From: Lentisphaeraceae bacterium | GTDB taxonomy: Bacteria > Verrucomicrobiota > Lentisphaeria > Lentisphaerales > Lentisphaeraceae | Direction: 5' to 3' | Length of the DNA stretch: 64,000 nt | NCBI GenBank assembly: GCA_021232515.1 | Contig: JAJPOQ010000041.1 | Span: forward strand, 1 to 64,000 | Part shown: in pieces, positions 5,127 through 27,190 of the stretch | Numbering within the stretch: the stretch's first letter is position 1 | Layout: each line of letters opens with the position of its first letter | Translations under genes and position numbers: made by a program | Notes under the pieces: generated by a model | Seen by the model: only the letters and a program-made list of their open reading frames with translations | What the model was told of the DNA's origin: nothing | Databases searched by the model: none

Positions 5127-5960
5127 ATGAGAACAGAAGGTTATAACGGTGTTCATCTTTACATGAACGAGATTGAAGAAGTACCTCTCCTAAGTCGCAA
5201 AGAAGAGTACTCTCTAGGTGAGCGTGCTGTAGAAGGCGACCCTAAAGCCATCGATAAACTAATAGTGAGCAACTTGAGACTAGTTGTTAAGATCGCGAAT
5301 GACTTCAAAGGATTTGGTGTTTCTCTAAATGATTTAATTGCCGAGGGAAATCTTGGTTTGATGAGAGCTGCTAATAAGTTTGACCCAACAAAAGGCGCCA
5401 AGTTCAGTAGCTACAGTGCACTTTGGATTAAGCAATCTATAAGAAATGCTCTCGCGAAACTAGGTCGAACTGTTCGTATTCCGATTCAATCGATTTCTAA
5501 AATCAGTAAAATCCGTCAGGGTGTTAAAGACCTTAAAGAGCTACTGAAAAGAGAGCCAACGAATCAGGAAGTCGCTGATTATCTAGATTTTCCAGAGTTA
5601 ACGATTCGTCACTTGAGAAATGTAAATACTGAAAATGTATCATTGCATCAGAAGGTTTTACAGAAAGAGAACTCAGGCGAGTTACAAGACTTCGTAGAAG
5701 ATAAAAATGCTTTAGATGTAGCTCAATTACTTGATTTACAAGACTGTATGGGAGTTATGTCTAACTACATGGACCAACTTAAAGATCGTGAGCGTTTGAT
5801 TCTTACCATGAGATATGGTCTGAATGGTCAACGCATAAGAACACTTGAAGAAGTAAGCCAAGCTATAGATCTAACTCGTGAAAGAGTACGCCAGATTCAA
5901 ATAGCAGCGGTAGAAAAAATTAGAAGAGCGATGAAGCTGGACGGTATTGTCCCTTACTGA
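5127..5960 (+). CDS. RNA polymerase sigma-70 factor, RpoD/SigA-like (group 2 size)
   Basis: This 277-aa sigma factor has regions 1.2 (LYMNEIEEVPLLSRKEEYSLG), 2 (NLRLVVKIANDF, DLIAEGNLGLMRAANKFDP, FSSYSALWIKQSIRNAL), 3 (REPTNQEVADYL) and 4 (ERLILTMRYGL, TLEEVSQAIDLTRERVRQIQ). It lacks the acidic region 1.1 and the large non-conserved insert of housekeeping RpoD, and it is short, so it is more likely a group 2 alternative sigma factor than the main one. The start is fixed by an AGGAGG ribosome binding site (5117-5122) 4 nt ahead. It is monocistronic: two palindromes lie upstream and a strong terminator downstream. Confidence 0.9.
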   Translation: MRTEGYNGVHLYMNEIEEVPLLSRKEEYSLGERAVEGDPKAIDKLIVSNLRLVVKIANDFKGFGVSLNDLIAEGNLGLMRAANKFDPTKGAKFSSYSALWIKQSIRNALAKLGRTVRIPIQSISKISKIRQGVKDLKELLKREPTNQEVADYLDFPELTIRHLRNVNTENVSLHQKVLQKENSGELQDFVEDKNALDVAQLLDLQDCMGVMSNYMDQLKDRERLILTMRYGLNGQRIRTLEEVSQAIDLTRERVRQIQIAAVEKIRRAMKLDGIVPY

Positions 5961-6094: not shown

Positions 6095-6475
6095 TTAAGC
6101 TTCAGCAGGTTGGTACTGTGCCCCACCAAATCCAAGTATTGGGTACATGACAAAACCAAAAAGTGCTAGGCAAATGCCAAAGAGGGCATCTTTACCAAAG
6201 TTTTTAGCAATAGAAATACTTGTAAGTACACCAATGATGATATTAACGAATGGTACAATTAAAAGTATGATCCACCAAACTGGTTTTTTAGCAATTTTCA
6301 GCAATACAATACCATTGTAAATCGGAATGATTGAAGCCCAGCCAGGTTGGCCAGCTTTTGTGAAAGTCTTCCACAGACCAGCAATAATTGCTACTAATAC
6401 AGCAAGTTGAACTATTAGCATTACGATTCCGATACCAGCTGCGGCACCATCAGATTGAGCAAGAATAAAATTCAT
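6095..6475 (-). CDS. small DUF5684-like membrane protein
   Basis: This 126-aa protein is predicted to be almost entirely membrane-embedded, with hydrophobic spans at about 14-36, 65-88 and 95-117. The central motif GQPGWASIIPIYN followed by a hydrophobic hairpin is typical of DUF5684-type proteins, also seen fused to signal peptidase I in some Bacteroidota. It has an N-out short leader and an Ala/Gln/Pro-rich tail (GGAQYQPAEA). The gene stands alone with its own terminator. The function is unknown. Confidence 0.75.
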   Translation of the reverse strand: MNFILAQSDGAAAGIGIVMLIVQLAVLVAIIAGLWKTFTKAGQPGWASIIPIYNGIVLLKIAKKPVWWIILLIVPFVNIIIGVLTSISIAKNFGKDALFGICLALFGFVMYPILGFGGAQYQPAEA

Positions 6476-6555: not shown

Positions 6556-8514
6556 TTACTTTTCAATGATTTTAATATGACTCGGCAATGACTCTTTAAT
6601 GTTTTTGGGCATTTGCCCTTTAGAGACAGTGAGTGTTTGTAAGAATTTCAGGCTGCGTAAAACTTGCCAGTTAGTAAATGGCGCTTTGCTTATATTGAGT
6701 TTTACGAGAGGCATGTTCTCAATGAATTCGGATACATCTAGTTTAGATTTTGAAACATCTAGAGAGAGAATACGGCGTCCCTTGAGGAACTTTGGAGGGG
6801 AATTTGGCCAACCACGCAGTATTAATTCTTCGATTTGAAGTTGCGCTACAACTCTTTCCATATTTGATGATGCAGGTGTGTAACTTAGATTAAGTTTTTT
6901 TATGTAAGCGGAACCTAGCTTTTCGAGAATCCAAATTTCTTTGAGCCTTGGATTGTTTGAGAGATCAATTATCAAGCCTTCTGGAGTTTCGTTTAGGTCG
7001 ATATTTACTTTTGTTAATTTAGGGTGTTTGTACAGAAGTTCAGCGACGATAAGTTGTTTTTTTTCTTTTGTGCTGAGTAAACCTTCAAAAGCATCTATAA
7101 GTAAGTTTTTGTAGAGGATCATCTCTGTTTGTTGACGTTTTCTATCTACTTGGGAAATGAAGGAGATGAGGTCTTCAACATTAAAAGGAGTCTTCTCTTT
7201 ATAGGTTTCTACAAGACTTTTTAAGTCTCCACTTATGTATGGAAGGGCTTTGGTAAAGTCTTGTTGGGCTAGGTAGACTAAACCAATTAGTTCTTTTGCT
7301 TTTTTAGAGTCGTTATTTCGCAAGATGTGGTTTACTAAGTTTATGACAGCTCCGTAGTTGCGCTGTTCATATGCTAGGTAGGCGTTTTCCAGATATTTTG
7401 GAGCAAGTTCCTTTTCTAGTTTAACTCTTTTCTCTTCTGTATCTTGAAGAGCGGAGGCTAGTTTTGTCGCTTGTTTTTCTTTCTGTGAAAGGGATGAGAT
7501 GAAGCCAATAGTTAGCAGTGAAATGACAATTGCTGAAGCTAAAACAGATAAAGAGACAGCCTTGTTTCTGAGAGCTAAGAGTTTTAGCTGAGTTAGAAAT
7601 CCAGCTTTTTCAGCTTTGGTGGCAAAGCCGTTTCGCCATGCTTGAAGCTCTACTAAAAAGTCTTTTGCATTTTGGTAGCGGAATTCTTTGTCTGCAGATA
7701 AGGCTTTAACACAGACTGCTTGGAGAGCCTCAGGACCTTGAAGTTTGCTGAGGACTGGTTTCGGATCTGGTTTTTGCTGACTTAGAATTCTGTAAAGTAT
7801 AGCTCCTAGTGAGTAGATGTCCGCGAGGTGATCTCGATGAATGTTTTTCATGGACATTTCAGGAGCGGTATAGCCGATGGTACCCTTGAAGTAAGAATCA
7901 AGGCTTTGACTGAGATCTACTTTTTTGAGAAGCTCATCATTTAAAAGTTCATCACTACAGTTTTCGTATGCTATACCGGAAAGACCCCAATCACAAAGAA
8001 GGGCTTCGCCATATTCACTGACTTGGATGTTATCCGGTTTTAAATCGAAGTGAATTATTCCCTTGTTGTGTGAGAAGTTTATGGCATCACAAATCTTTAT
8101 AAGAATATCGATTTTACTGTTGAGGTCATGTTCTTTATTGAGATAGTGCTCAAATGTATGGCCACTTATAAGCTTCATCGTGAAGAAAGGCGCATTATCT
8201 TGATCAAGACCGGTGTCGTAGACTGGGATGATATGTGGGTGTTCTAAGTGTGCAGTAAGTCTTGCTTCTCGAATAAATTTGGCGACGTTTTCACGAGCAT
8301 TTATATCTTTGACTGTTGCATAGGCTACAACTCGACCAGTGAGTGAGTCGATACATTTAAAGATCTTTTTTTGCCCACCTTCAGCCAGAAACTCTTTTTC
8401 TATATATCTTTCATCGGGGTCGATTATGAGCTCGGATAGTTGCTCAGATGAATGGTGTGAAGTATGGGCTTCACTAAATTGTGAGTGTAGGAATTTTTGA
8501 AATTCCTCATCCAT
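6556..8514 (-). CDS. membrane Ser/Thr protein kinase with WNK-like lysine placement and Leu-rich C-terminus
   Basis: This 652-aa protein has a Hanks-type kinase domain at about residues 38-290. The alpha-C glutamate is E83, the catalytic loop is HFDLKPDN (155-162), the DFG position reads DWG (175-177) and APE is at 217-219. The beta-3 lysine is missing (VAYA, residues 63-66), while the glycine loop contains lysine (GGQKK, K49). One membrane span (about 319-341) separates the cytoplasmic kinase from an outer region with a coiled-coil/TPR-like part and a C-terminal leucine-rich stretch (LSLDVSKSKLD and similar). Its start codon overlaps the stop of the upstream ECF sigma gene by one base (TAATG), so the two are translationally coupled; the kinase probably regulates that sigma factor or a shared pathway. 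A paralogous pair lies at 24633-27190. Confidence 0.9.
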   Translation of the reverse strand: MDEEFQKFLHSQFSEAHTSHHSSEQLSELIIDPDERYIEKEFLAEGGQKKIFKCIDSLTGRVVAYATVKDINARENVAKFIREARLTAHLEHPHIIPVYDTGLDQDNAPFFTMKLISGHTFEHYLNKEHDLNSKIDILIKICDAINFSHNKGIIHFDLKPDNIQVSEYGEALLCDWGLSGIAYENCSDELLNDELLKKVDLSQSLDSYFKGTIGYTAPEMSMKNIHRDHLADIYSLGAILYRILSQQKPDPKPVLSKLQGPEALQAVCVKALSADKEFRYQNAKDFLVELQAWRNGFATKAEKAGFLTQLKLLALRNKAVSLSVLASAIVISLLTIGFISSLSQKEKQATKLASALQDTEEKRVKLEKELAPKYLENAYLAYEQRNYGAVINLVNHILRNNDSKKAKELIGLVYLAQQDFTKALPYISGDLKSLVETYKEKTPFNVEDLISFISQVDRKRQQTEMILYKNLLIDAFEGLLSTKEKKQLIVAELLYKHPKLTKVNIDLNETPEGLIIDLSNNPRLKEIWILEKLGSAYIKKLNLSYTPASSNMERVVAQLQIEELILRGWPNSPPKFLKGRRILSLDVSKSKLDVSEFIENMPLVKLNISKAPFTNWQVLRSLKFLQTLTVSKGQMPKNIKESLPSHIKIIEK

Positions 8515-9113
8515 TAATTCAGTTCCTGGTTGAGCTTAAGTATTTCTTTTTGAAGAGTGTTGAGTACGCGTTTTTTATAGACGTAGACAGAACTTTCAGA
8601 AATACCTGTTTCGTGAGCAACAGTGACGGTGTCTTCTCCAGAGGAAAGCCTTTGAAAAACATCGAGGACTTTTTCGGTAAAGCGAGGCTTTATGTTCTCC
8701 CAAGCTTTTTCTGAGATGAACTTTTCCCACTCATTGTTGATGTTATTCTCTATATCTGGAGAGGCAAGTGTGTCGAGAGACTCTTTAAGTCTTTGACTTT
8801 CTTCTTCATTGACGCTAATAAATGTCTTCTGACGCTTCTTTATAAAGTGACCACATTCTCTTCTCGTTACCGTACTAATCCAGGCACGAAAAGAACCTTT
8901 TTCAGGCTGGTAATTAAACTTTGGTAGAGACTTCCAAGAGATAAGCATGATGTTTTGGTGAAGGTCATCTCGATCGTGAGAGTTCATGTGGAGAGCTCTT
9001 AAAATTCTCATGATATATGGGCCATAAGTTTCCTGAAACTCCACCCAAGAGGCTTCGTCGTAACGATCGCGTAGTTTCTCTAGCAGTGTTTGTCTGGTTC
9101 TTGGTGTAGTCAT
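8514..9113 (-). CDS. ECF-type RNA polymerase sigma factor
   Basis: This 199-aa sigma factor has region 2 at the N-terminus (TRQTLLEKLRDRYDEASWVEFQ is spread over residues about 5-26, then DRDDLHQNIMLISWKSLPKF and FRAWISTVTRRE) and region 4 at the C-terminus (helix-turn-helix around TVTVAHETGISESSVYVYKKRV). It belongs to the PVC-type ECF factors usually encoded beside Ser/Thr kinases or cytochrome clusters. No anti-sigma factor is adjacent; the next gene is a membrane kinase overlapping by one base, suggesting control by phosphorylation. Similar in length and layout to the factor at 26573-27190. Confidence 0.88.
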   Translation of the reverse strand: MTTPRTRQTLLEKLRDRYDEASWVEFQETYGPYIMRILRALHMNSHDRDDLHQNIMLISWKSLPKFNYQPEKGSFRAWISTVTRRECGHFIKKRQKTFISVNEEESQRLKESLDTLASPDIENNINNEWEKFISEKAWENIKPRFTEKVLDVFQRLSSGEDTVTVAHETGISESSVYVYKKRVLNTLQKEILKLNQELN

Positions 9114-9199: not shown

Positions 9200-9541
9200 C
9201 TAGAAGGAAATGTCGTAAATACCATCAGAATTAAGCGAGATTGGAATAACTTCACTTACGGCATTCATATTTAAAGGGCCGTATATGTGAGGATAAAGAG
9301 AACCTGCAGCAGTTTCCCACTTAACTTCAGGAGAGACAGCATTTTGTTCTACGATTATAACAAGAGGCTTAACAGTTTCTTTATAGTACTTGTTGGCGAC
9401 ACGATTTAGCTGGTCTTTTGAGGAGGCGTGAATGAAGCCTTCAAGTTTAAGTGATTCCCTAAATAGAAAACCTAGTTCTTTTGCTTCATCGTATTCTTTG
9501 TTAGATGAAAGCAGATAGATAAATTTGTCTGAAGAACTCAT
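9200..9541 (-). CDS. DUF952 family protein
   Basis: This 113-aa cytoplasmic protein matches the DUF952 pattern: FIYLLSS at the N-terminus, GFIHASSKDQL near 35-45, and VKWETA...LYPHIYGPLN near 75-95. DUF952 is a small ADP-ribosyltransferase-like fold of unknown function. It lies 55 bp downstream of the LarA-like gene with an intervening hairpin, so it may be the last gene of that transcript or have its own. The family assignment is good and the role unknown. Confidence 0.82.
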   Translation of the reverse strand: MSSSDKFIYLLSSNKEYDEAKELGFLFRESLKLEGFIHASSKDQLNRVANKYYKETVKPLVIIVEQNAVSPEVKWETAAGSLYPHIYGPLNMNAVSEVIPISLNSDGIYDISF

Positions 9542-23869: not shown

Positions 23870-23898
23870 AGGCGACTTCGAAAGAGGTCGCCTTTTTA
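23870..23898 (+). terminator. rho-independent terminator of the DUF1080-GntR operon
   Basis: AGGCGAC (23870-23876) pairs with GTCGCCT (23887-23893), followed by TTTTATT. A perfect 12-bp palindrome, AATCTATAGATT (23854-23865), lies just before it and could serve the convergent prepilin gene. Confidence 0.8.
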
Positions 23899-24540
23899 TT
23901 GTTCGGGATCGAAAAATGTATGATCATCACTCCCGCCAGGAATGAGGTACTTATAGCTTCTAGCTTTACCGCTAAGATCGAGGTGAGTGACTACAGCCTT
24001 TTTTAGATGTCTAGCGATATTACTCGCAGCGTCTTCTTCAACCAACTTAGTAACTGTCAATGCAGAGCTCCAGCTAGATCGTATAGTTTTATAAGAATCC
24101 ATCAGCATCATCGTTTCCGACGCAGTTGCTTGTAAGGTATTTTTCTGTGGCCCCCAGACATCTCCAGTGATATGAGAGTTCATCGCGATTGTTGACTCCC
24201 AGTTATTTTGGACATCTTCACGAGTCGGACAGTATTGGACTTCAGCTGGTCCAAATAAATCTACGTTTCCTTGATTGAGATAGTGTGGAACTAGTCGATT
24301 ATGCCAAAAGACACGACCGCCAACACGACCTTCATACGGAATAGCATCATCTAAAGGAGCAAAGCCCTTATTGTCTTGGATATAGGAGGCAGTCGCAAAG
24401 CCTACTTGACGTTGATTGCTCAGACAGACTGTTTGTGTCGCTTTCTCGCGAGCTTGGCTGAGGGATGGCAGCAGAATACTGGCTAAAATACCTATGATAG
24501 AAATGACAACGAGCAGCTCAATCAGTGTAAATTTTTTCAT
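23896..24540 (-). CDS. type II secretion/prepilin-type (PulG/DUF1559-like) protein
   Basis: This 214-aa protein has a class III prepilin leader ([20 protein letters not shown]), with the invariant Glu five residues after the cleavage site, followed by [12 protein letters not shown] typical of Lentisphaerota/planctomycete pseudopilin-like proteins, a disulphide-capable globular part and a C-terminal THLDLSG segment like the H-x-DG motif. The internal ATG is chosen because GGATG precedes it at good spacing. These proteins occur in large families in the phylum and are of unknown function. It is followed upstream (on its strand) by a kinase/ECF pair, a recurrent arrangement that may reflect common regulation. 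Confidence 0.85.
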
Positions 24541-24632
24541 AAATAGCATCCGTAATTGATATAGATTTACCTAAACACTCCCATAGTTTTGAAAACCTAA
24601 CATGTTTTATGAGCGTTTATCTAAAAATAATT

Positions 24633-26564
24633 TTAGATACGAATGATTTGTAGAGATGAGTCTTTCGGTGGTTTTGCTTTTGGCCACTTTTTCTTATTGA
24701 TATAAAGCCTTTTTAAAGTGGGGATTTTAAGTATGTCTTTTATGCTTTGAATCTTGGTATTTACCATTCGTAGTTCGATAAGAGGCATCTCTTCAAACAT
24801 CCAACTTTGCCAGATGTCAGTATTTGAAATATTTAAGTGATTTATTGGTATGTCACGAACACAGCCAGTATGAGCAAGGAATCTATTTTTCGATAGGTCT
24901 AAGTAAGCCGCGTCATCAGTTTGAGTGAAATTCAAATTCCACTTTTTGTTTTGTGGGTTGTGATACTTCAGCATGAAGAAGCATGTTTTCATGTGGTCAT
25001 CTAATGACTTGTAATTTGCAATGCAGAAGCGATAGATTTTGAAGATGTGATTGGTTCTGTTAAACTTTTTGAGAAGTGGTATGACTTTGCTGCTCGGTAG
25101 CATTTCATCATCGGCTTTAGTCTTGCTTAAATCTTGTGCGATAAGGACGAACTTTTTATAGTTTTTTTTGTATTTTCCACTTTGATTGAACGCTGCTAGT
25201 GACTGATTGAACTCTTGGCGATAGAAGTGAATAACTCCTTTTAAAGCGTAGGCAACTTGGTTCACAGGATCGCGATCAATTGATTGGTCAATAAACTGTA
25301 TGGCTTCGTCGTACTCAAAAGAGTTTAGTGCTTGTTTTGCCATATAGACAAGACGTGGAGATGCTTCTTTGCCGATGATCTCCGTTTGACGTTTTTCCTC
25401 TTCATAAAGCATAAGAGCATTTGTCGCTTCTCGCTCTTTATGGCTGATGGTGACCATTGAGAGGATGAGCGAGGCAACGATGAACACAAGTAGTGATGCA
25501 ACCGCTTTATGACGCTTCAATAATAAAATAGCAGACTTGAGGAATCCGGCATTTTCTGCAGATGTAGCAAAGCCTCCTAGCCACTTGTGAATGTCATTCC
25601 TCAAGAGAATAACGCTTTTGTAACGTTTAGAAGAGTCTTTGTCTAAAGCCTTCATGGCGACGGCTTCTAGGCTTAAAGGAACATTGAAAGGTAAGCTTAG
25701 CTCGGATGGCGTTGGTACCTCTCCAGCAACTGTTGCATCGAGAACTTCTTGAACATTATCCTTTTTTATAGGCGGCCTAAGTGTCAACAGCGTATAAAGG
25801 ATTCCCCCGAGAGCATATATGTCAGTTTGTTTAGTTTTATCACCAAGCTTAGAGTCGATTTGTTCTGGAGCCATAAAGCCAGGTGTACCTTTAATGATGC
25901 CATCGAGAGTTATGTCGTTATAAAAACATGGATCGAGCTCACCGTCGATAGTTTCGTCGGGTGCATCAGTTACTTTAGCTAAACCCCAGTCACAAACGAG
26001 AACCTCGCCATATTCACCTATTTGTATATTCGACGGCTTTAGGTCTAAGTGGAGGATACCTTTGGAGTGTGCATAGGAAATGGCATCGCAGATCTTGATG
26101 AATATATCGAGCAAGTTTTGTAGTGAAACTTTAGAAGTACCTTCTCCGAGTTCTTTTAAAATCTTTGAGAGACTTTTGCCGCCGATGAGTTTCATCGTGA
26201 AAAATGGGTCTGAACTGTCAGTTAAGCCTATATCGTAGACAGGAATGATGTTTGGATGTTCTAGTGTTGCCGTAAGTCGCGCTTCTCGTAGGAAGCGTTC
26301 TACCTTTTGAGGATCGTCAGGCTTTAATAAAGTTGCCATGGCAACAGGGCGGCCAGTTAAAGTATCCGTTGTCTGGAGGATTTTCTTCATCCCTCCCTGA
26401 TTGATGAGAACTCCTTGGTCATAGCGCTTTTCATTTGCGGCTATTTCATCAAAAATAGGTTGAGGTGTACTTACGTCTTCCGAGGCAAGGTTGAAGTATT
26501 GGTGAAGAGAGGGATTGATCGTTTTGAAAATATTTTCAGATGACTCAGTATTTTCCTGGCTCAT
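24633..26564 (-). CDS. membrane Ser/Thr protein kinase with WNK-like lysine placement and Leu-rich C-terminus
   Basis: This 643-aa paralogue of the kinase at 6556 has its kinase domain at about residues 48-330: E94 in alpha-C, HLDLKPSN (172-179), DWG (192-194), APEQ near 232. The glycine loop is QGGMKKIL with K60 and the beta-3 segment is VAMA (74-77), so the usual lysine is absent and K60 lies 17 residues before that position. One membrane span (about 354-373) is followed by a TPR-like region and a leucine-rich tail (LDLSKNRF, LKRLYINKK). It lies 8 nt after the ECF sigma gene in the same direction. Confidence 0.9.
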   Translation of the reverse strand: MSQENTESSENIFKTINPSLHQYFNLASEDVSTPQPIFDEIAANEKRYDQGVLINQGGMKKILQTTDTLTGRPVAMATLLKPDDPQKVERFLREARLTATLEHPNIIPVYDIGLTDSSDPFFTMKLIGGKSLSKILKELGEGTSKVSLQNLLDIFIKICDAISYAHSKGILHLDLKPSNIQIGEYGEVLVCDWGLAKVTDAPDETIDGELDPCFYNDITLDGIIKGTPGFMAPEQIDSKLGDKTKQTDIYALGGILYTLLTLRPPIKKDNVQEVLDATVAGEVPTPSELSLPFNVPLSLEAVAMKALDKDSSKRYKSVILLRNDIHKWLGGFATSAENAGFLKSAILLLKRHKAVASLLVFIVASLILSMVTISHKEREATNALMLYEEEKRQTEIIGKEASPRLVYMAKQALNSFEYDEAIQFIDQSIDRDPVNQVAYALKGVIHFYRQEFNQSLAAFNQSGKYKKNYKKFVLIAQDLSKTKADDEMLPSSKVIPLLKKFNRTNHIFKIYRFCIANYKSLDDHMKTCFFMLKYHNPQNKKWNLNFTQTDDAAYLDLSKNRFLAHTGCVRDIPINHLNISNTDIWQSWMFEEMPLIELRMVNTKIQSIKDILKIPTLKRLYINKKKWPKAKPPKDSSLQIIRI

Positions 26565-26572
26565 AGCAGCGT

Positions 26573-27190
26573 TTAACCAAGTTCGATGTTTAAACGACGT
26601 ATTTCTTCACAGAGTTTTGCAGTCACTCGTTTTTTGTAGACACTCACAGTATTTGCAGGTATTTCGCGTTCTTCGCCAATTTCCTTTGGGGACTTACCAG
26701 CACTCAGTTCGATAAAGACTTCTATGACTTTATCTGAAAACTTTGGGCGAATGTTATTTAAAGCCATATTGGCAATATAGGTTTCCCATTCTTTCTCAGC
26801 TATCTCGGTTATATCCGGCATGGAGACTTTATCCATAGGATTATAACTTTCGTCTTGAGATGCTTTATCTATCTTGGTCGCCTGGCGTTTTTGTTGGCGA
26901 TATAGATCTTTGACGCAGTTACCAGTCACTTGGCAGAGCCAACCTCTAAAGCGTCTACGTTTATCGTACTCAAAGCCAGGAAGAGTATTCCACACCTTAA
27001 CGAGAACTTTTTGGACAACTTCTTCAGAGTCGTGATGATTTAAATTCATACGTCGACAGATGATGTATATGAAGTGTTTATAGTAGAAAACGAAGTCCTC
27101 CCACGACTTGTCATCGTGCTGGTTTCGAATTTTCTCTAGGAGAGTTTCTCTTGTATGGTAGTTTTCTTGATCAGTTTCACTCATGCCCAT
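26573..27190 (-). CDS. ECF-type RNA polymerase sigma factor
   Basis: This 205-aa sigma factor has the PVC-type region 2 (TRETLLEKIRNQHDDKSWEDF, HHDSEEVVQKVLVKVWNTLPGF, FRGWLCQVTGNCV in pieces) and the region 4 helix-turn-helix (KSPKEIGEEREIPANTVSVYKKRV). It is closest in layout to the factor at 8514-9113 and likewise precedes a membrane kinase. A 21-bp interrupted palindrome lies 38 bp upstream of the start. Confidence 0.88.
   Translation of the reverse strand: MGMSETDQENYHTRETLLEKIRNQHDDKSWEDFVFYYKHFIYIICRRMNLNHHDSEEVVQKVLVKVWNTLPGFEYDKRRRFRGWLCQVTGNCVKDLYRQQKRQATKIDKASQDESYNPMDKVSMPDITEIAEKEWETYIANMALNNIRPKFSDKVIEVFIELSAGKSPKEIGEEREIPANTVSVYKKRVTAKLCEEIRRLNIELG

Follow-up and report, generated by a model that had tools for sequence, protein, structure and literature searches.

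Can a protein kinase whose beta-3 lysine has been replaced be active by means of a lysine in its glycine loop? The question is raised by two membrane kinases encoded in the window (the whole stretch of 64,000 nucleotides analysed here, from a Lentisphaeraceae bacterium). The beta-3 lysine serves as a marker for judging kinase activity, and mutating it is the usual way to obtain a kinase-dead control. Both kinase open reading frames lie on the minus strand, a detail left unstated in an earlier sequence-only reading of this DNA, and both adjoin genes for ECF-type sigma factors. The features concerned are:

6556..8514, minus strand: kinase 1 (P0001), 652 amino acids, from the open reading frame and its translation; PF00069
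About residues 37–303 of kinase 1: cytoplasmic Hanks-type kinase domain, followed by one transmembrane helix
C-terminal region of kinase 1: helical TPR-like and LRR-like parts, from the full-length AF2 model
8368..8370, minus strand: K49 of kinase 1, glycine-loop lysine at the position of PKA G55 and WNK1 K233, residue 1 of beta-2
8317..8319, minus strand: A66 of kinase 1, in beta-3 at the position of PKA K72 and WNK1 C250 (translation, WNK1 alignment, AF2)
8266..8268, minus strand: E83 of kinase 1, alpha-C glutamate (PKA E91), from alignments and in the alpha-C helix of the model
8029..8052, minus strand: catalytic loop HFDLKPDN of kinase 1, residues 155–162 (translation)
7984..7992, minus strand: DWG metal-binding motif of kinase 1, residues 175–177 (translation)
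7489..7545, minus strand: predicted transmembrane segment of kinase 1, VLASAIVISLLTIGFISSL (hydropathy; long helix 318–383 in the AF2 model)
8514..9113, minus strand: ECF-type sigma factor of kinase 1, 199 amino acids (Sigma70_r2; TIGR02937 sigma70-ECF), directly upstream of the kinase gene with a 1-base overlap
24633..26564, minus strand: kinase 2 (P0002), 643 amino acids, architecture as in kinase 1
26385..26387, minus strand: K60 of kinase 2, glycine-loop lysine at the G55/K233 position, residue 1 of beta-2
26334..26336, minus strand: A77 of kinase 2, in beta-3 at the K72/C250 position (alignments, AF2)
26283..26285, minus strand: E94 of kinase 2, alpha-C glutamate (E91; alignment, AF2)
26028..26051, minus strand: catalytic loop HLDLKPSN of kinase 2 (translation, alignment)
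25983..25991, minus strand: DWG motif of kinase 2 (translation, alignment)
25446..25502, minus strand: predicted transmembrane segment of kinase 2, VASLLVFIVASLILSMVTI (hydropathy)
26573..27190, minus strand: ECF-type sigma factor of kinase 2, 205 amino acids (Sigma70_r2; TIGR02937), 8 nt upstream of the kinase gene

Both proteins match the Pkinase family PF00069 (104.3 bits for P0001 and 118.7 bits for P0002, with a gathering score of 31.7 as cut-off), and their translations read EGGQKKIF, VAYA (63–66), HFDLKPDN and DWG in P0001 and QGGMKKIL, VAMA (74–77), HLDLKPSN and DWG in P0002. The sequence-only reading had located both genes and had proposed that each carries alanine at the beta-3 lysine site (PKA K72) and lysine at the third glycine of the loop (PKA G55), 17 residues apart as in WNK1. 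All of this was borne out, the same spacing being found in each of the 166 ORF records of the family. When WNK1, its sequence checked letter for letter against 5w7t/6cn9, was aligned to the family profile, K233 fell on K49/K60, C250 on the alanine and E268 on the alpha-C glutamate, again with a spacing of 17. Of the residues that characterize Hanks-type kinases, E91, the HxD aspartate, Asn171 and the DxG aspartate are present in both proteins and invariant or nearly so across the family, and the beta-3 lysine is absent; because alanine replaces K72, the kinases of this type (the K55 family) are a non-canonical variant of the Hanks type. As for neighbouring genes, an RpoD/RpoS-like sigma factor of 277 amino acids (5127–5960, plus strand) is encoded near kinase 1, a DUF5684 protein of unknown function (6095–6475, minus strand) directly downstream of it, and a 113-amino-acid ORF with no NCBIfam match (9200–9541, minus strand) just upstream of its sigma gene. 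Directly downstream of kinase 2 lies a pseudopilin-like protein (23896–24549, minus strand) whose N-terminal methylation motif scores just below the Pfam cut-off.

The K55 family is larger than the two window kinases, with 39 paralogues in this one Lentisphaeraceae genome (5.26 Mb in 177 contigs, 87% complete). Among its 95 Pkinase matches, 39 aligned kinases had lysine at the G55 position together with alanine (37), threonine (one) or glycine (one) at position 72, and 44 others had K72 with glycine, serine or alanine at position 55 in the first alignment. A profile alignment of the distinct kinases gave 39 with K55 and no K72, 46 with K72 and no K55, three with neither and none with both. One of these three, L049, does contain K72 (AVKVL), offset by the alignment, so that only L085 (5146–6678, plus strand) and L086 (1–3573, minus strand) lack both lysines. 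These also lack E91 and the HRD/HxD motif, i.e. they are degraded, apparent pseudokinases that offer a useful contrast. A third kinase with K55 and Ala72 was seen on the window's own contig just beyond the window (76839–77624, locus L045 of contig C56), and a canonical K72 kinase (L033, 1894–3078, minus strand) combines HLD and DWG, the motif context of the K55 family without the swap.

Residue constraint was assessed over 156 distinct members from Lentisphaerota, Kiritimatiellota, Verrucomicrobiota and Planctomycetota. Position 55 was lysine and position 52 glycine in 156 of 156, and position 72 was never lysine (Ala 154, Thr 1, Gly 1), counts to be read with the facts that many members were retrieved through a pattern requiring K55, Ala72 and E91 (the 39 from the window's genome were retrieved without it) and that paralogues are non-independent observations of a swap that probably occurred once. 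The remaining catalytic residues were kept throughout (E91 in 155/155, D166 in 151/151, N171 in 149/149 and D184 in 149/149), as was Trp185 of the DWG motif (149/149); HLD or HFD was found in 143 of 151 members and HRD in four. In the alignment of the 39 kinases of the window's genome, K55 is one of 21 invariant columns, and in a column-wise comparison of the family with canonical kinases, columns 55 and 72 were the most diagnostic two of the whole domain, with no other newly conserved basic residue. The GG-x-KK signature suggested from the two window kinases thus survives in its first lysine, conserved in all 156, and fails in its second, position 56 being scattered over many residues, which rules out this second lysine as the catalytic one. 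Likewise, HFD or HLD and DWG are indeed present in both kinases, but DWG is not peculiar to the swap: because nine canonical kinases combine it with K72, its tryptophan is not tied to the relocation, and DWG was discarded as a component of it.

The distribution of the swap was surveyed at the DNA level. The sequence-only reading had proposed that PVC genomes be searched for the signature; a pattern for M-K-x13-VAxA...F[LI]xEA, which itself requires K55 and Ala72, matched 73 of the 388 genomes of the same GTDB phylum, its reversed control giving 0 matches. Genomes of the same family contained 2 to 20 matches each, and most other genomes of the class had at most one. Scanning some 85,000 genomes gave at least 110 loci; among the matches listed there were 97 K55 kinases (Lentisphaerota 59, Verrucomicrobiota 16, Kiritimatiellota 13, Planctomycetota 8) and 13 loci without a K55 kinase. 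Named sources of the K55 kinases among these matches belong to the PVC group throughout, and the planctomycete isolates include Rhodopirellula sallentina, R. rubra, R. maiorica and strain CA13. Because the swap pattern itself demands K55 and Ala72, the 388 genomes were also surveyed with a neutral pattern that allowed any combination of lysine and glycine at both positions. By eye, the in-frame kinases among the matches listed were solely K55 with Ala72 or Gly/Ser55 with K72, and the reversed control gave none. Kinases with both lysines were found neither among the distinct kinases of the window's genome nor among the listed matches of this survey. The combination of K55 with Ala72 is not due to chance. 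Three candidate exceptions to the neutral survey (G280:C3, G336:C25 and G000:C70:6663) were dismissed, there being no kinase in the frame concerned: one contains a stop codon, one codes for something other than a kinase, and one overlaps the L064 kinase out of frame.

Structural models, computed free of ATP, agree with the alignments. In the AF2 model of the kinase domain of P0002 (mean pLDDT 89.0), K55 is residue 1 of beta-2, E91 lies in alpha-C and Ala72 occupies beta-3. The full-length model of P0001 (mean pLDDT 82.6, pTM 0.46) runs from the kinase through a long helix with the transmembrane segment to a TPR-like helical part and, at the C-terminus, an LRR-like one. A transmembrane-like segment follows the kinase in 122 of the 124 family records long enough to judge, and K55-family kinases are predicted to be transmembrane receptors.

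We consider it quite likely that these proteins form a PVC subfamily of PknB-like receptor Ser/Thr kinases of single origin, in which the ATP-anchoring lysine moved from K72 to K55, and which are active and regulate the adjacently encoded ECF sigma factor. In the proposed mechanism, the lysine would have passed from beta-3 to the end of the glycine loop and start of beta-2, leaving alanine at position 72; K55 would reach the alpha and beta phosphates of ATP, paired with the alpha-C glutamate E91, and so fill the role of K233 in WNK1, the precedent for a glycine-loop lysine replacing that of beta-3 (PMC4718504). If K55 does the job of K233, the kinases would by analogy be catalytically active. 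The C-terminal (TPR/LRR-like) region would sense signals and control the cytoplasmic kinase, which in turn may regulate its sigma factor, probably by phosphorylation. We infer the role of K55 in catalysis, the kinase activity and the sigma factor as target, active kinases that use K55 for K72 and control their paired sigma factors being the most likely reading of the sequences.

Two other readings deny K55 this role. The kinases might be pseudokinases that simply lost the beta-3 lysine and whose domain works as an ATP-binding switch or a scaffold. According to a 2025 review (PMC12599244), pseudokinases are usually recognized by the missing VAIK lysine. In most members of the K55 family, moreover, the HRD arginine is leucine. 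By a definition based on loss of the beta-3 lysine, the HRD aspartate or the DFG aspartate, the family would formally qualify through K72, but K55 has been gained and the rest kept. The other catalytic residues, including both aspartates, the asparagine and E91, are essentially invariant over 156 divergent members, whereas the two truly degraded kinases of the window's genome have lost them together, and relaxed selection leaves unexplained an invariant K55 next to a free position 56. On this residue constraint we reject the pseudokinase reading as unlikely. Alternatively, the lysine might be replaced by a different basic side chain, either R67 ahead of beta-3 or the residue that follows E91, with K55 purely structural. 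Arginine does occupy position 67 (alignment column 37) in 153 of the 156 members, but canonical kinases are basic there too (54 Arg and 6 Lys of 72); because it is so common in them, R67 was not gained when K72 was lost, as only K55 was, and this substitute was rejected as extremely improbable.

Whether the swap was inherited from WNK or arose independently was addressed with trees of K55 and canonical bacterial kinases, WNK1 being outside the tree. A maximum-likelihood tree computed without columns 55 and 72 separated a superclade with all K55 rows from the canonical bulk (SH-aLRT 100), with two state changes; when long branches were omitted as well, the K55 rows formed one side of a branch (SH-aLRT 91), with one change. 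These trees are consistent with a single origin of the swap among PknB-like kinases, which they fit without proving it. That a WNK homologue was acquired from eukaryotes, or that a WNK-type kinase was ancestral to both, would account for the same two positions and the same 17-residue spacing as in WNK1. Against such ancestry, the family profile scores 207.7 bits with PknB and 107.7 bits with WNK1, the closest folds are those of mycobacterial PknA/PknB with no WNK among the best 50, trees and column comparison nest the swap among bacterial DWG kinases that keep K72, and the lysine was replaced by alanine, not cysteine; we regard it as next to inconceivable. Since the swap sits among PknB-like kinases, with PknB, PknA and StkP also the closest solved structures by sequence, the resemblance to WNK appears to be convergent. 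The independent WNK-like relocation in PVC bacteria postulated at the outset is thus upheld by residue conservation, by trees compatible with a single origin and by the lack of any alternative conserved lysine in the family, which together indicate that a catalytic residue has genuinely changed place, convergently with WNK, in a large family of bacterial receptor kinases.

The further suggestion of ion sensitivity as in WNKs was not supported. In WNK1, chloride is contacted by the amides of G370/L371 and by F283, L299, L369 and L371 (PMC7606576; see also PMC13397483), and the L369F mutant loses chloride inhibition (PMC7606576). Aligned to WNK1, the K55 family has V/I/L, F, W and L at positions 283, 299, 369 and 371, the tryptophan at the L369 position being present in 149 of 149 members. 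WNK-type chloride sensing is unlikely in this family because the bulky tryptophan resembles the insensitive L369F mutant. In WNKs, the site for chloride may coincide in part with that of the canonical lysine, whose move may permit the ion to bind (PMC7606576), and several members are marine (Lentisphaera, Rhodopirellula); yet with these pocket residues, and with regulation through the transmembrane sensor region more plausible, it is very improbable that relocation turned the K55 kinases into chloride or osmotic sensors. A decidedly speculative and rather improbable variant is that the beta-3 pocket left empty by the lysine, next to the invariant tryptophan of DWG, acts as a built-in ligand or ion switch of another kind than that of WNK, in which case this kinase–sigma receptor class might respond to intracellular solutes as well as through its outer sensor.

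In the window's genome, an ECF-type sigma gene was found within 300 nt of 28 of the 40 K55 records against 2 of 50 canonical ones (Fisher p = 1e-11), in most cases upstream in the same orientation and frequently with an overlap; no adjacent sigma gene was detected for 12 of the 40. In other genomes, with limited flanks, the counts were 57 of 126 and 1 of 27, and in Rhodopirellula, too, K55 kinases adjoin ECF genes. The K55 class probably governs a large number of ECF sigma factors across Lentisphaerae and related groups. Groups ECF59, ECF61, ECF62 and ECF217 have been published as kinase-linked, with references for ECF62 and ECF217 from Rhodopirellula (PMC8999054). At least three acidic residues were present in the DAED-type motif of 74 of 83 partner sigmas (DRDD and DSEE in those of the window), so that the ECF43 pattern, a phosphorylatable threonine in place of an acidic DAED motif, was not found in them. 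Because the motif is kept, the best-proven kinase-to-sigma mechanism, that of EcfP/PknT, is inapplicable as such, and phosphorylation of the motif in the EcfP manner was rejected; its retention fits the reviewers' remark that a DAED-like motif persists in ECF groups besides ECF43 and that these groups may operate in another way (PMC8999054). The partner sigmas (e.g. 8514–9113 and 26573–27190) also share a near-invariant N-terminal T-R-x-[TS]-L, with threonine in 81 sequences, a possible phosphosite or regulatory contact.

We found no description of such a bacterial kinase family in the literature open to searching (subscription papers being outside its scope). A 2007 survey named WNK as the only functional eukaryotic-protein-kinase family without the beta-3 lysine (PMC1821047), and the accessible part of the 2025 review of bacterial pseudokinase families covers neither planctomycetes nor Verrucomicrobia/Lentisphaerae, nor any such family (PMC12599244). 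Here a large, widely expanded bacterial family appears to have made the same move as WNK and to have retained it in all members examined. This family would offer a second natural experiment in catalytic-residue migration, in which the 39 paralogues of a single genome can be set against canonical sisters, and rule-based pipelines would mislabel this whole class of receptor kinases as pseudokinases.

Among known systems, the nearest by sequence and fold are the Hanks kinases PknB, PknA and StkP, which share the PF00069 domain. PknB and StkP have a single transmembrane helix and a C-terminal sensor region, as do the K55 kinases. They differ in their canonical Gly55 and Lys72 and in the sensor region, which is TPR/LRR-like in the K55 family, and within the window's genome linkage to ECF sigma genes is specific to the K55 group as against canonical kinases. 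A Ser/Thr kinase encoded beside an ECF sigma factor is also the arrangement of EcfP/PknT, of EcfK/PknS (ECF43) and of the predicted ECF59/61/62/217 systems; unlike in ECF43, the partner sigmas retain the acidic motif, and they are placed here by motif and gene context, not by ECF group. The positive charge has apparently shifted from position 72 to 55, as arginine, in the CAK-chloro subfamily, and the 2007 kinome survey noted the same charge shift in WNK and CAK-chloro (PMC1821047), although CAK-chloro is choline/aminoglycoside-kinase-like, with phenylalanine for E91 and methionine at 72. A glycine-loop lysine likewise stands in for that of beta-3 in POMK (protein O-mannose kinase), which differs as a eukaryotic sugar kinase that lacks the alpha-C glutamate and has its partner acid in a DLD motif (PMC12599244). 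With WNK (K233/C250) the K55 family shares lysine at 55, none at 72 and E91 retained, which we read as the same functional substitution; unlike WNK, it is bacterial and PknB-like, has alanine for cysteine at 72, HLD and DWG for HRD and DLG and different chloride-pocket residues, and combines the swap with a transmembrane receptor architecture and linkage to ECF sigma factors.
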